Shown here in pieces: positions 1-16,115 of a stretch of DNA of 16,365 bases. Origin of the DNA: Blautia sp. (GTDB taxonomy: Bacteria; Bacillota; Clostridia; Lachnospirales; Lachnospiraceae); contig JAFOJB010000212.1 of NCBI GenBank assembly GCA_017420455.1, forward strand, positions 1-16,365. The letters run 5' to 3'. Numbering within the stretch: the stretch's first letter is position 1; every line of letters begins with the position of its first letter. Under the pieces are notes generated by a model. That model saw only the letters and a list, made by a program, of their open reading frames with translations. It made no database searches and was not told the DNA's origin. The translations under genes and the position numbers were made by a program.

Positions 1-966
1 ATCCTGGCCCATATGATGTACCAGCTTCTGATGTGCGTACTGCAGACAGCGATCACGCTGTTTGTCATGAATATGATGGGCATGAAGTTTCAGGGCTCAG
101 GCCTGTTTACCCCCTGGCTTGTGGTGGATGCCGGCATTACGATGCTGCTGATCACCTACGCCTCCGATCTGCTTTCTCTGTGGATCTCGACGCTTGTACA
201 TTCAACCACGACAGCCATGACCATCATGCCCTTTGTGCTGATCTTCCAGCTGATCTTCTCCGGCGGTCTTTTCGCTCTGCCGCAGATCGTGGATCCCATC
301 GTGAAGCTGACGATCTCCAGTCCGGGACTGAAGGCCATGGCGTCCCAGACGCAGGTAAATTCCCTGCCCTACGACACGGTCACGGATATGCTGAATCTGG
401 TAGATGATGTGGAATTCGGCGGCCGTATCACCGTCGGCCAGGTGCTGGACGCACTGGGGGATTCCGAAAACCAGACGATCAGCGAGCTTCGGCAGGTCCA
501 GATCGGAAATGTCATGACGGTCCGGGAGGTCGGCGAGGCTATTCTCACGGAAGACAATTATAAAGCGATCCGGGAAACGAACATCATCGAGGGACTTAAC
601 GTAGGCCAGGTCATCTCCCTGCTCATGGATCTGGAGCCGCTGGAAGATGTCCTCTCCACCAACGTCGGTTTCATCACGACTCTGGGCGATGTTGTGGATT
701 TCCTGGCGACGAACGAAACGGTGCAGAGCTTCCGCGACGAGGGGCTCACCATCAGAACGACGCTGGGCGATATCCTGGATCTTGTCGGGCGGGAAGAGAC
801 AAAGGCGCTGGTCGAGAGCAAGGCCGCCGAAGCCCTGTATGAGCCGGATTATGCGTACACGCAGGAAAACATCATAAATAACTGGCTGCATCTTCTGATC
901 TTTATCGCCGCATTTGCTCTTCTGTCAACCATCACACTGGAGTTTATCGACAAGGATAAGCGTTAA
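1..966 (+). CDS. ABC-2 type (ABCG-like) transporter membrane domain, 3' part only
   Basis: The reading frame is open from base 1, so this is the C-terminal part (321 codons) of a longer gene that starts outside the window. Counting from the first Met at base 13, hydrophobic segments lie near residues 8-21, 37-60, 66-90 and 291-310, the arrangement of an ABC-2/ABCG permease domain; the protein ends with the polar tail FIDKDKR. Between the third and last membrane segments is a loop of about 190 residues, unusually large, that contains five or six degenerate repeats of about 24 residues (138-270), each with a core like TVGQVLDAL or TLGDVVDFL. The ATPase portion, if fused, would be upstream. The gene ends at a strong bidirectional terminator. 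Its substrate cannot be inferred and it has no obvious link to the sugar loci. The family call rests on hydrophobic pattern and general resemblance. Confidence 0.7.
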   Translation: MLAHMMYQLLMCVLQTAITLFVMNMMGMKFQGSGLFTPWLVVDAGITMLLITYASDLLSLWISTLVHSTTTAMTIMPFVLIFQLIFSGGLFALPQIVDPIVKLTISSPGLKAMASQTQVNSLPYDTVTDMLNLVDDVEFGGRITVGQVLDALGDSENQTISELRQVQIGNVMTVREVGEAILTEDNYKAIRETNIIEGLNVGQVISLLMDLEPLEDVLSTNVGFITTLGDVVDFLATNETVQSFRDEGLTIRTTLGDILDLVGREETKALVESKAAEALYEPDYAYTQENIINNWLHLLIFIAAFALLSTITLEFIDKDKR

Positions 967-11524: not shown

Positions 11525-11616
11525 GGCTCGAAGCCAAAGCCGGCAGATAACCATCATTTATCAACGTTTCCACCGGAAATCCGTTTCGTATGCGGGCACA
11601 GAAAAGGAGGACAACC

Positions 11617-12732
11617 ATGAGTTTAAAAAACAGAGAAGCCGAGATCCGGGAAAAGCTTTCCCTGATCACAGGCAAGCTGATGAACCTGAAGATGAACGAA
11701 AGCACAAACCCGGAATCCGCGCTGGCGTCAGAACTGTTCCGCCGGGACAGCGGCATCCATATCTGGGACTGGCCCCAGGGAGTCGGGCTTTACGGCATCC
11801 ATAAGCTTCAGGAGGTCATGCCGGACCCGGCAAACAGGGCCTTCCTGGAAAACTGGTACAAGGAAAGATTCGCAGAGGGTCTTCCTCTGAAAAATATCAA
11901 CACCACCGCCCCGATGCTCACGCTGGTGGATTTTATCGACGAAAATCCTGCCTATGAAAGCCTGGCAAAGGAATGGGCCGACTGGCTGCTGCATGAGCTT
12001 CCCAAAACCGAGGAGGGAGGCTTCCAGCATGTCACCAGCGGAAGCGGCGACGGAAAATCCCTGATCCTGAACGAACAGCAGATGTGGGTGGATACCCTGT
12101 TCATGGCTGTTCTGTTTCTCAACCGCATGGGCCAGAAATATGCCCGTCAGGACTGGATCGAGGAGGGCATCCATCAGGTGCTGATGCACATCAGATATCT
12201 CTGTGACGTCCACACGGGTCTCTTCTATCACGGCTGGACCTTCAAAGAAAGGAACCACTTCGGCGGCGTCTTCTGGTGCCGCGGAGACAGCTGGTTCACT
12301 CTGGGCATCCTGGATTATCTGGAGATGTTCGGAGGCAATATCTCTCCGGCCATCCGGACCTATATCCTGGATACCTTCCGCTCTCAGGTCAAAGCCCTTG
12401 CGTCCCTTCAGTCACCTGCCGGCCTGTGGCACACGGTCCTTCTGGATCCGGGCAGTTACGAAGAGACCTCCGGCTCTGCGGCGATCACCGCTGGTATTCT
12501 CCAGGGAATCCGGACCGGCGTCCTGGATCCTTCTTACCTGGAGACGGCAGAGCGCGCTGTCGGCGGAATCCTCTCCAATATCGCAGAGGACGGAACTGTC
12601 CTGAACGTTTCCTCCGGCACCCCCATGGGCATGGATGAAGATTTTTACCGGAATATCGCCATCGCCCCGATGGCCTACGGTCAGTCCCTGACCATCTTCG
12701 CCCTGGTGGAAGCCCTCCGCGCCATGGAGTAG
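11617..12732 (+). CDS. GH105 unsaturated glucuronyl/galacturonyl hydrolase
   Basis: This 371-residue protein resembles YteR/YesR-type enzymes (GH105, GH88 clan), which remove the 4,5-unsaturated uronic acid left on oligosaccharides by polysaccharide lyases, by a hydration mechanism. Family marks are WDWPQGVGLYGI near the start, QMWVDTLFMAVLFL with Asp159 matching the catalytic Asp of YteR, YHGWTF, then FWCRGDSWFTLGIL, and LLDPGSYEETSGSAAITAGI. Length fits the family. There is no signal peptide. The ATG at 11617 follows AAGGAGG by 6 bases; the ATG at 11590 has no such site. It follows the GH31 gene by 92 bases without an obvious promoter. Its presence implies that the substrate was first cut by a lyase, as with rhamnogalacturonan or other uronic-acid glycans; no lyase is in this window. 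Confidence 0.93.
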   Translation: MSLKNREAEIREKLSLITGKLMNLKMNESTNPESALASELFRRDSGIHIWDWPQGVGLYGIHKLQEVMPDPANRAFLENWYKERFAEGLPLKNINTTAPMLTLVDFIDENPAYESLAKEWADWLLHELPKTEEGGFQHVTSGSGDGKSLILNEQQMWVDTLFMAVLFLNRMGQKYARQDWIEEGIHQVLMHIRYLCDVHTGLFYHGWTFKERNHFGGVFWCRGDSWFTLGILDYLEMFGGNISPAIRTYILDTFRSQVKALASLQSPAGLWHTVLLDPGSYEETSGSAAITAGILQGIRTGVLDPSYLETAERAVGGILSNIAEDGTVLNVSSGTPMGMDEDFYRNIAIAPMAYGQSLTIFALVEALRAME

Positions 12733-12763
12733 TATCTTTATCCAAAATCACACAGCTGTAATT

Positions 12764-12795
12764 CAGACAATCGGATATGTTTCGTCTGTTTTTTT
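12764..12795 (+). terminator. Probable terminator after the GH105 gene
   Basis: CAGAC (12764-12768) and GTCTG (12784-12788) can pair with a 15-base loop, and seven T residues (12789-12795) follow directly. The stem is short, so termination may be partial. It separates the enzyme genes from the next promoter. Confidence 0.5.
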
Positions 12796-12822
12796 AAATT
12801 TTATGATTTCGGTCGAGAAGCA

Positions 12823-12843
12823 TCATGGACATTCTGTTCATGA
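12823..12843. promoter_or_regulatory. Operator-like palindrome, copy 2, over the -35 box
   Basis: The left arm TCATGGACA, the centre TTC and the right arm TGTTCATGA form an inverted repeat matching at 8 of 9 arm positions. It covers the -35 box (12826-12831) and half of the spacer of the binding-protein promoter, where a repressor would exclude RNA polymerase. On the minus strand the sequence 12840-12824 matches the site at 7817-7833 in 15 of 17 positions. Confidence 0.65.
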
Positions 12844-12854
12844 AATGCTATACT
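12826..12854 (+). promoter_or_regulatory. Strong sigma-A promoter of the binding-protein/permease operon
   Basis: TGGACA (12826-12831), a spacer of exactly 17 bases and TATACT (12849-12854) each match five of six consensus bases. An extended -10 TGC stands directly before the -10 box. Transcription would begin near 12861, only about 37 bases before the presumed start codon. Confidence 0.85.
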
Positions 12855-12883
12855 TATATTGATATTTTGTATCATATTTATCA

Positions 12884-12900
12884 AAGGAGGATTTCATATA
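12884..12900 (+). promoter_or_regulatory. Perfect ribosome-binding site followed by ATA instead of ATG
   Basis: AAGGAGG (12884-12890) is followed after a 7-base spacer by ATA (12898-12900), in frame with a classic signal peptide (KKKLLATVL onward). No ATG, GTG or TTG lies at a usable distance. The only in-frame alternatives are TTG at 12859, which lies at or upstream of the predicted transcription start, and TTG at 12910, which is 19 bases from the ribosome site and would delete the positive N-terminus. Confidence 0.75.
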
Positions 12901-14244
12901 AAGAAAAAATTGCTCGCAACTGTTCTGGCTTCTGCTATGGCATTGTCGCTTCTCGTCTGCAGCTCGGCTGTTGTATCCGCAGAAGCTGCCTTTGATCCCG
13001 CTTCTGCCGGAGATGTCGCTGTCGGCTTTGCCTGGTGGGGCAATCAGGTACGTGACGAGGTCACCAAAGCAGCCCTCGATCACTTTACCGAGCTCTATCC
13101 GAATGTTACCTTCAACCTTAACGCACAGACCTGGAACGACTACTGGGCACAGATGACCAGCTTCTCCTCCAGCGATACCCTGCCGGATCTGATGCAGCAG
13201 GATTACGCGTATTTCGAGCAGTGGGTAGAGGCCGGAGACCTTCTGGACCTGACTCCCTACATCGAGAGCGGCGCCCTGGATCTTTCCAAACTTCCCGAGA
13301 GCATCGTAGAGACCGGCGTCAGCGCGACTGACGGTCATGTATACGCAGTCTGCGCCGGCATGAACGCTCCCGCGTTCTCCTACAACAAGACCCTCACCGA
13401 CGAGCTGGGCATCGAGGTTCCGGACAACATGAGCTGGGATCAGTTCGTAGAGATCTCCCGCAAGATCTATGAGGAAGCAGGCGTAGGAGCCATCTTCCAC
13501 AACTTCAATTCCGAGAACCCCATCACCTTCTATGCCCGCGGACTTGGCCATGAGGCTCTCTTTGAAGCAGAAGGCGTTACCGTTTCCGCAGAGGAAATGG
13601 AAGGCTACTATCAGAGACTGATGGACGGCGTACAGGAAGGCTGGCTGTTCAGTACAGAGAAATGCGCAAGCGTCGATATGGCTACCATCAGCCAGCATCC
13701 GCTGGTATACGGCGCTGACCCGAGCGTCAGAAGCTGGTGCGCGTTCGCATTCTCCAACCAGTACCTTGCATTCTGCGATGCCGCAGAAGCAGACGGCATC
13801 GAGCTTGGCATCACCAGCTGGCCGGAGGACAACGCAGCTACCGCCAACTATCTGAAACCCAGCCAGTTCTTCTCCATCACCACCGATACCCAGAACCCGG
13901 ATCTGGCTGTTGCCATCCTGAACTACATGATCAACGATGTGGACGCAAACACTCTGCTCCGCGCAGAGCGTGGTATCCCGGCCAACAGTGATGTTGCTGC
14001 CGCAATCGCAGATACGGTTTCCCAGACAGATAAGACCTATCCGATCATCGTGAATTATCTGGATTTCGTGGCTGATAACTCCACCGCCATCTTCCCGCCG
14101 CTTCCCAGCTATGCAGGAACGGTGAACACCGACGTGATCGAAGCCCTTTCCAGTGAGGCCCTGGATCCCAACACCAGCTACACCGCCGCCGAGCTTGGCG
14201 AAGAATTTGTAGACGGGTCAAACAGCGTAGCTGAAAACTTCTGA
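12898..14244 (+). CDS. CUT1 oligosaccharide-binding protein, apparent ATA start
   Basis: This 448-residue exported protein fits the COG1653/SBP_bac family, the receptor for MalF/MalG-type importers such as the two permeases that follow. The N-terminus (KKKLLATVLASAMALSLL) is a textbook signal peptide with likely cleavage after VVSA. A cysteine is present in LLVCSS, but the preceding Val does not make a standard lipobox. Mature features include DVAVGFAWWGNQ, the helix ending FTELYPNVTF, the hinge-region SWDQFVEISRKIYEE, and tryptophan-rich ligand-cleft stretches. The reading frame is intact to TGA at 14244. The start is odd: the ribosome site points to an ATA codon, so this is either a rare non-canonical start, a recent ATG-to-ATA mutation or a sequencing error. 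It has its own strong, operator-covered promoter, and a terminator-like stem follows it. Confidence 0.88.
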   Translation: MKKKLLATVLASAMALSLLVCSSAVVSAEAAFDPASAGDVAVGFAWWGNQVRDEVTKAALDHFTELYPNVTFNLNAQTWNDYWAQMTSFSSSDTLPDLMQQDYAYFEQWVEAGDLLDLTPYIESGALDLSKLPESIVETGVSATDGHVYAVCAGMNAPAFSYNKTLTDELGIEVPDNMSWDQFVEISRKIYEEAGVGAIFHNFNSENPITFYARGLGHEALFEAEGVTVSAEEMEGYYQRLMDGVQEGWLFSTEKCASVDMATISQHPLVYGADPSVRSWCAFAFSNQYLAFCDAAEADGIELGITSWPEDNAATANYLKPSQFFSITTDTQNPDLAVAILNYMINDVDANTLLRAERGIPANSDVAAAIADTVSQTDKTYPIIVNYLDFVADNSTAIFPPLPSYAGTVNTDVIEALSSEALDPNTSYTAAELGEEFVDGSNSVAENF

Positions 14245-14259
14245 TTCATAAAATAGCCG

Positions 14260-14303
14260 AAAAAAGGGGCTGTCGACAGTACTTTGTGCCGGCAGCCCTT
14301 TTT
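14260..14303 (+). terminator. Intra-operon terminator/attenuator after the binding-protein gene
   Basis: AAAAAGGGGCTG (14261-14272) pairs with CAGCCCTTTTT (14293-14303) with one bulged G, and the stem extends inward through CG/CG beyond one mismatch. The 3' arm ends in five T residues. It lies 16 bases past the stop codon and 44 bases before the permease start, so partial read-through would give much more receptor than permease, as is common in CUT1 operons. Confidence 0.8.
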
Positions 14304-14346
14304 GCACTGAACAGCGGATATTCTATTACAAGACGGGGGTGTTTTT

Positions 14347-15255
14347 TTGAACAAGAAAAAGATGTCTTTCCGGCAGTGGTTCGGTCAGGAGCATGTGGCA
14401 GGATACGTATTCAGCCTGCCTTTCATCTTTGGTTTTCTGATGTTCATGCTCATTCCGATGATCATGTCGCTATATTTTTCCTTCTGCAAATATGACATAC
14501 AAAACCCGGCGACTTTTATCGGGCTGAAAAACTATATCAATATCTTCCATGACAAAGCCTTCTGGAAAGCACTCCGTGTGACCTGTTACTACGCGCTCAT
14601 CGGAACACCGCTGAAGGTGATCTTCGCCCTGATCGTGGCTCTGATCCTTTCCAGAAATACACTGGTAACGCCGATCTATCGGGCATCCTACTATCTTCCT
14701 TCGATCATCGGCGGATCCGTGGCCGTCGCCATCCTGTGGCGCCGCCTCTTCGAGCCCACCGGTACCATCAACGCCATTCTGGGCATTTTCTTCCCGGGCA
14801 TCAAAAACTTCAACTGGTTCGGGGAAAGTACGGCGATCTGGGTGCTGATCATCCTGACGGTCTGGCAATTCGGCTCCTCCATGCTGATCTTCCTTTCCGC
14901 TCTGAAGCAGATCAACCGTGAGCTCTACGAAGCAGCCATGGTGGACGGGGCCAATAAATGGAAACAGTTCTGGAGGGTGACCCTTCCCCTGCTGACTCCC
15001 ACCATTTTCTTCAATCTGGTGCAGCAGACCATCAACTCCTTCCTCGCCTTCACCCAGAGCAAGCTGATCACTGACGGCCAGCCCAAGGACAGCACCCTGT
15101 TCTACACGCTGTATGTCTACCGGAAGGCCTTCCCCAGCATGGGAAAGAGCCAGATGGGATATGCCTCTGCCCTGGCCTGGATCATGCTGGTGATCATTTC
15201 CCTGGTGACTGCCCTCCTGTTCTGGAGCCGCAGCAAATGGGTCTATGAAGATTGA
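14347..15255 (+). CDS. CUT1 sugar ABC transporter permease (MalF/UgpA/YteP type)
   Basis: This 302-residue inner-membrane permease has about six hydrophobic segments: for example VFSLPFIFGFLMFMLIPMIM near residue 22, ALIGTPLKVIFALIVALIL, and ALAWIMLVIISLVTALLF at the end. The EAA loop that docks the ATPase begins at Glu195 (EAAMVDGANKWKQFW, then RVTLPLLTP). It pairs with the next permease to import the ligand of the upstream binding protein. The start appears to be TTG at 14347, 7 bases after the weak GGGGG site (14335-14339); the first ATG at 14362 is 22 bases away from it. The TTG lies at the end of a run of seven T. The protein most resembles permeases from pectic or complex-oligosaccharide operons, but specificity is not encoded in a visible motif. 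No partner ATPase gene is in the window. Confidence 0.92.
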   Translation: MNKKKMSFRQWFGQEHVAGYVFSLPFIFGFLMFMLIPMIMSLYFSFCKYDIQNPATFIGLKNYINIFHDKAFWKALRVTCYYALIGTPLKVIFALIVALILSRNTLVTPIYRASYYLPSIIGGSVAVAILWRRLFEPTGTINAILGIFFPGIKNFNWFGESTAIWVLIILTVWQFGSSMLIFLSALKQINRELYEAAMVDGANKWKQFWRVTLPLLTPTIFFNLVQQTINSFLAFTQSKLITDGQPKDSTLFYTLYVYRKAFPSMGKSQMGYASALAWIMLVIISLVTALLFWSRSKWVYED

Positions 15256-15269
15256 GAGGAGGAATGAAA

Positions 15270-16115
15270 ATGGCTAAGAAAAAGACTAAGGGAGCAATCA
15301 TCTATCATATCCTCGTCACCATCGGGGCATTTATCATGGTCTATCCTCTTCTCTGGATGATCCTCAGTTCCTTCAAACCCACGAACTCGATCCTGCCCAC
15401 TGCCACCCAGCTGATCCCCACTACATGGACCCTGGACAACTACCGGACGGGCTGGAAGGGCTTCATGGGATATTCCTTCGCAACCTTCTTTAAAAACTCC
15501 TTCTTCATCTCCATCGTGTCCACCTTCGGCACGCTGATCTCCTCTGCGTTCGTGGCGTATTCCCTCCAGAGGCTTCAGTTCAGAATGAAGAGGATCCTCT
15601 TCGTGCTGGTGCTCTCCACCATGATGCTGCCGCCGCAGATCCTGATGATCCCGCAGTACATGTGGTTCCGCCGCCTGAACTGGGTAGGTACCTACAACCC
15701 CATGATCGTTCCGTATTTCTTCGCGATCCAGGGCTTTTTCGTATACCTGATCATGAACTTCATCGGCGGCGTCCCGAAGGAGCTGGACGAGGCAGCCAAG
15801 ATCGACGGATGTTCCTATTACGGGATCTTCTTCCGGATCATCCTGCCCCTGATCACACCTGCGCTGGTCACCAGCGCGATCTTCTCCTTCATCTGGAGAT
15901 GGGACGATTACCTCTCCGCATTGCTCTATGTGACAAAGCCGGCGATGCGGCCCATCTCCCTGGCCCTGAAGCTGTTCAACGATCCCTCCTCCGGGTCGGA
16001 TATCGGCGCGACTCTTGCCATGTCCACCCTCTCGATTGTTCCTGCTACGATCCTGTTCCTGTTCTTCCAGAAATCTCTGGTAGAAGGAATCGCAAGCTCC
16101 GGCATCAAGGGATAA
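15270..16115 (+). CDS. CUT1 sugar ABC transporter permease (MalG/UgpE/YcjP type)
   Basis: This 281-residue inner-membrane protein is the second half of the CUT1 channel. Hydrophobic segments begin with IIYHILVTIGAFIMVYPLLW, and the MalG-type opening LLWMILSSFKPTNSI is present. The EAA loop starts near Glu174 (EAAKIDGCSYYGIFF, then RIILPLITPAL). FIWRWDDYLSALLYV, TLAMSTLSIVPATILFLFFQ and the closing KSLVEGIASSGIKG are family hallmarks, the last being the usual C-terminus of MalG-like permeases. The ATG at 15270 follows GGAGG by 7 bases; nearby in-frame codons at 15252 and 15264 are upstream of or too close to that site. It starts 14 bases after the preceding permease stop, so the two are co-translated. 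Confidence 0.94.
   Translation: MAKKKTKGAIIYHILVTIGAFIMVYPLLWMILSSFKPTNSILPTATQLIPTTWTLDNYRTGWKGFMGYSFATFFKNSFFISIVSTFGTLISSAFVAYSLQRLQFRMKRILFVLVLSTMMLPPQILMIPQYMWFRRLNWVGTYNPMIVPYFFAIQGFFVYLIMNFIGGVPKELDEAAKIDGCSYYGIFFRIILPLITPALVTSAIFSFIWRWDDYLSALLYVTKPAMRPISLALKLFNDPSSGSDIGATLAMSTLSIVPATILFLFFQKSLVEGIASSGIKG

Follow-up and report, generated by a model that had tools for sequence, protein, structure and literature searches.

The stretch of DNA analysed here (the window, which is the whole of contig C162, 16365 bases) contains the substrate-binding protein gene of a sugar ABC transporter with ATA, instead of the ATG of its relatives, in the position of the start codon. We consider it most probable, at about 0.7, that this ATA arose by a recent single-base change from ATG in the lineage or population of this assembly, and that it lowers the expression of the receptor. 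The features of the region are collected in Table 1.

Table 1. Features around the ATA codon in the window.
Feature	Position	Strand	Basis
GH88-family glycosidase gene, just upstream of the binding-protein gene	11590..12732	+	Pfam
Predicted sigma-70-type promoter, extended -10	12826..12854	+	Pattern scan; layout matched in the closest relative (L146), by eye
Shine-Dalgarno (SD) sequence AAGGAGG (AAAGGAGG if 12883 is counted)	12884..12890	+	Sequence; duplex with the anti-SD
ATA at the start position	12898..12900	+	Sequence; ATG in 14/14 related loci
Sugar ABC transporter substrate-binding protein gene, 448 codons and stop, signal peptide	12898..14244	+	Open frame, Pfam, homologues
Hairpin, 14 pairs, U-rich 3' arm, between the binding-protein and permease genes	14262..14303	+	Folding
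Permease 1 gene (BPD_transp_1), TTG start	14347..15255	+	Frame, Pfam; dN/dS 0.027 versus L146
Permease 2 gene (BPD_transp_1)	15252..16115	+	Frame, Pfam; dN/dS 0.021 versus L146, aligned part

The codon is flanked, as in the relatives, by a promoter, an SD and a lysine-rich start of the signal peptide. Positions 12884-12900 read AAGGAGG, the 7-base spacer ATTTCAT (12891-12897) and then ATA, in agreement with the sequence-only reading, and the ATA at the start position is a real feature of this sequence. The codons that follow are AAG AAA AAA TTG CTC GCA. A near-consensus promoter with an extended -10 element had also been claimed and was found as described, with TGGACA (12826-12831), 17 bases and TATACT (12849-12854), and TG at 12846-12847. 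The pattern scan alone is not significant, since one site was found and 1.1 were expected in shuffles of the same region; by eye, the nearest relative (L146) shares the layout in the same place, with TAGACA, 17 bases and TATAGT preceded by TGG. The leader had no special fold (z 0.43), and a search of 12600-14500 against Rfam gave no matches up to E = 1.

Comparison of the codon in close homologues, a check proposed in the sequence-only reading, showed that the corresponding codon is ATG in all 14 related loci, those of the two closest species (92% and 88% identity over the matched parts) among them. These loci are Lachnospiraceae and Butyrivibrio records, comprising community assemblies and some named strains, together with two Clostridia assemblies, and many are from the ruminant gut. 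The ATG was printed at the match in 11 loci, lay immediately before the match in L020 and L021, and was reached by walking upstream in L013; L009 and L010, apparently the same contigs as L011 and L018, were left out of the 14. The 14 loci are not fully independent, as L016, L022 and L024 hardly differ around the start. At the protein level, the initial Met of all 12 aligned homologues (12 of 120 listed among 173 hits in all) falls on the column of the ATA and is followed by Lys-Lys or Lys-Arg, and the window protein has Lys-Lys-Lys after the ATA, which bears out the basic N terminus of the signal peptide noted earlier. The ATG in all 14 related loci indicates that ATG is ancestral; of the sequences compared, this assembly alone has ATA. 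Judged by these alignments, the ATA is a derived, private G-to-A transition, one step away from ATG. A genus-level search gave matches in 3 of 64 genomes at E <= 1e-60, the own genome included, and a family-level search in 1 of 397 genomes at E <= 1e-130, which was the own genome, with at most four candidates scored per genome listed. The start region had no matches among the viral contigs searched.

The remainder of the gene is intact. For the mature binding protein (417 codons) dN/dS was 0.037 in comparison to the closest species, and for permeases 1 and 2 it was 0.027 and 0.021; the values are simple Nei-Gojobori counts with dS of 0.88 to 1.52 and are hence approximate. At mature sites that are invariant in 12 relatives the window protein has two private changes, and those relatives have 0-5; in a closer group of seven it has five and the others have 3-9. 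By these counts strong purifying selection has acted on the binding-protein gene since its lineage and the nearest species diverged, and there was no sign of decay in the sequence, with tests that are insensitive to very recent loss. The earlier suggestion of a freshly mutated start is supported: the change is private, derived and a single transition from ATG, and purifying selection on the gene is otherwise strong.

The binding protein passed the Pfam gathering cut-offs for both SBP_bac_8 (62.5 bits, cut-off 27) and SBP_bac_1 (62.1 bits, cut-off 26). The two BPD_transp_1 permease genes directly downstream of it are found in the same order in L146, L013 and L012, and the GH88 gene lies upstream in these three loci as well. 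In the closest relative (L146) the gene order esterase, GH31, GH88, binding protein and permeases is kept. That the substrate of the transporter is a sugar is suggested by the glycosidase neighbours only. Permease 1 has its TTG behind a G-run, and the closest relative is apparently alike, by the look of the sequence. Permease 2 probably starts not at 15252 but at an ATG a few codons further in. A hairpin like that between the binding-protein and permease genes was present in 3 of 3 distinct relatives folded; it resembles intergenic hairpins that hold the mRNA of the binding protein in excess over that of the permeases. The signal region (12898-12990 in the window) was also inspected by eye. 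A lipobox is clear in distant relatives (L-A-A-C) but poor in the window protein (L-L-V-C), and three close relatives (P0002, P0005 and P0006) are without a cysteine in this part of the alignment. From the poor lipobox and the three relatives without cysteine, lipid anchoring of the receptor may have been lost in the subclade of the window protein.

An error in sequencing or in the assembly consensus, in which case the true base would be G and the start codon ATG, as in the relatives, survives best among the alternatives, and we hold it to be unlikely. Such an error is compatible with a private difference of a single base at a place where every related locus has ATG, and with an assembly that is fragmentary (593 contigs, 77.9% complete) and probably derived from a metagenome. 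However, short-read assemblies seldom have a consensus error at any given base, and the rest of the gene is without sign of errors, with 448 open codons, only the two private changes at invariant sites and the low dN/dS of the mature protein. We infer that the base is real.

Clearly less probable is a kept regulatory AUA start that would cap the receptor or couple it to IF3 or to the growth state, as proposed for ccpN of Staphylococcus aureus. The spacing is good and the predicted duplex of SD and anti-SD, at -13.0 kcal/mol, is the second strongest of 14, yet it is within the range of the 13 relatives (-11.1 to -16.6 kcal/mol), and ATA was found in none of the 14 related loci, the two closest species included. 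On this comparison the view that AUA caps or regulates the receptor level as a lasting start is unsupported, although the rank of the SD could be cited in favour of a tuned AUA start. AUA starts of S. aureus do work at a reduced rate, which for ccpN depends on the medium (PMC13009471). We give similarly little credence to an AUA that is fixed in the species, was selected for a lower receptor-to-permease ratio and places sugar uptake under the control of IF3 or of the growth state.

A kept AUA start is also disfavoured by the other places examined in the genome, and routine use of AUA was considered and rejected. AGGAGG followed after 5-9 bases by ATA occurs at 189 places versus 261 for the reversed control, so that ATA is not enriched behind SDs, and no second convincing ATA start was seen at the 97 of these 189 places that were examined, in part a judgement by eye and not a proof. 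Of the 189 places 100 were listed, three of them on the window contig (the present finding and two others); the remaining 97 fall in 84 stretches, which on scanning of both strands gave 100 distinct SD-ATA pairs. At least 60 open codons followed the ATA in 21 of the 100 pairs, and the other 79 frames were shorter. Seven of the 21 longer frames were translated, with four of the seven run against Pfam, and the rest were judged from in-frame starts; several had ATG, GTG or TTG beside the ATA and several were inside longer frames. A frame of 282 codons in L090 was rejected: it encodes a DeoR-type regulator in which the DNA-binding domain does not start until residue 25, and an ATG precedes it at 19 codons into the frame. 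The ATA frames in L087, L109 and L069 had no Pfam match and look like chance frames. The pattern GGAGG-5..9-ATAAARAARAA was present at one place in the genome, the binding-protein gene (reversed control 0), and its ATG version at nine places (control 0). Two strict patterns used to look for an initiator tRNA with a changed anticodon matched nothing in this incomplete assembly, not even the normal tRNA, and the result carries no weight.

At infC the genus does retain an apparent non-AUG start, a point in favour of a regulatory start. GGAGGT is followed at a constant position by ATT or ATC in all 33 infC loci read (L058, L113-L142, L143 and L144), which represent the own genome, 30 others and the two closest species; 62 of 63 genomes had a match. 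The codon is ATC in three of the 33, among them the own genome (L058, G000:C579). We take it to align with the AUU start of Bacillus subtilis infC, and a non-AUG infC start is known elsewhere. The exact start is not proven because an ATG follows four codons later in most loci. By sequence comparison the infC start of the genus looks like a kept, conserved non-AUG start, unlike the ATA of the binding protein.

It is very improbable that translation has shifted to another in-frame codon: TTG 12859 coincides with, or slightly precedes, the transcription start that the predicted promoter would give, and TTG 12910 and ATG 12937, which lie 19 and 46 bases past the SD, have by eye no SD of their own and lose the basic n-region found in the 12 aligned relatives, a start at TTG 12910 removing Lys-Lys-Lys and one at ATG 12937 cutting into the signal peptide. 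From these positions, the earlier statement that the gene has no other usable start codon is reasonable but is not thereby demonstrated. The protein-collection entry for the window protein (P0001, 435 aa, in a cluster of 3 member sequences) does begin at ATG 12937, 13 residues late, presumably because the gene caller does not accept ATA.

If the start codon was recently changed, as we prefer, a single G-to-A transition would have turned the ancestral ATG of an ordinary sugar-binding-protein gene into ATA. Directed by the intact SD, ribosomes would most likely still initiate at the AUA, with fMet, but less often, and by analogy the rate would be about a tenth to a third of the AUG rate. Less of the receptor would be made, and the permeases would be translated from their own starts. 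By the same analogy, receptor production is probably lowered but not abolished. An impaired operon, which the sequence-only reading had offered as a consequence of the mutated start, is only partly likely, as published AUA starts keep about 10-30% of AUG expression (PMC13009471) and the permeases have starts of their own.

Comparable start codons have been described in cultured bacteria. In poor medium AUA reporters of S. aureus reached about 10% of AUG expression, and in rich medium ccpN reached up to 30% (PMC13009471). The citZ gene of S. aureus is similar to the present gene in being a metabolic gene with an AUA start confined to one lineage, NCTC 8325, and has about a tenth of AUG expression in poor medium; it was reporter-tested in a cultured species, whereas the receptor ATA is known from the sequence of one assembly (PMC13009471). 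In Listeria monocytogenes the same transition in the rsbW start codon lowers translation but keeps expression, although those mutants came from acid-resistant derivatives and SigB control was changed (PMC13068326). A one-base ATG>ATA polymorphism in rpoS of Escherichia coli O104:H4 likewise reduces the protein, RpoS, but it concerns a sigma factor in a cultured isolate (PMC12864459) and not a sugar receptor in one assembly with Lachnospiraceae affinity. Both ccpN and infC of S. aureus resemble the window in having AUA behind a strong SD. The non-canonical start and the extended SD of ccpN, however, are reported to be conserved from S. aureus to B. subtilis (PMC13009471), whereas the receptor ATA is not conserved and its SD is within the range of its family. 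In gut E. coli the lacI start codon, GTG versus ATG, was reported to affect lactose use (PMC11445065). The AUA tests in the available part of PMC10158994 use a matching anticodon and have no bearing on AUA with the normal initiator, and no mention of AUA or ATA was found in the available part of PMC5622118.

The ATA allele is ordinary in kind, as similar changes are already known in other bacteria, and it changes no general idea. It is a clear-cut case from nature of a changed start codon that can mislead gene callers: those refusing ATA would mis-annotate the gene, as in P0001, which is short by 13 residues with much of the signal peptide gone. A fixed and selected AUA would, if true, amount to an adaptive switch of start codon in a carbohydrate operon of the gut or rumen. 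Provided that the ATA is real and frequent in the population, it would represent a natural allele that lowers the expression of a sugar receptor, much like the start-codon variants reported in cultured bacteria.
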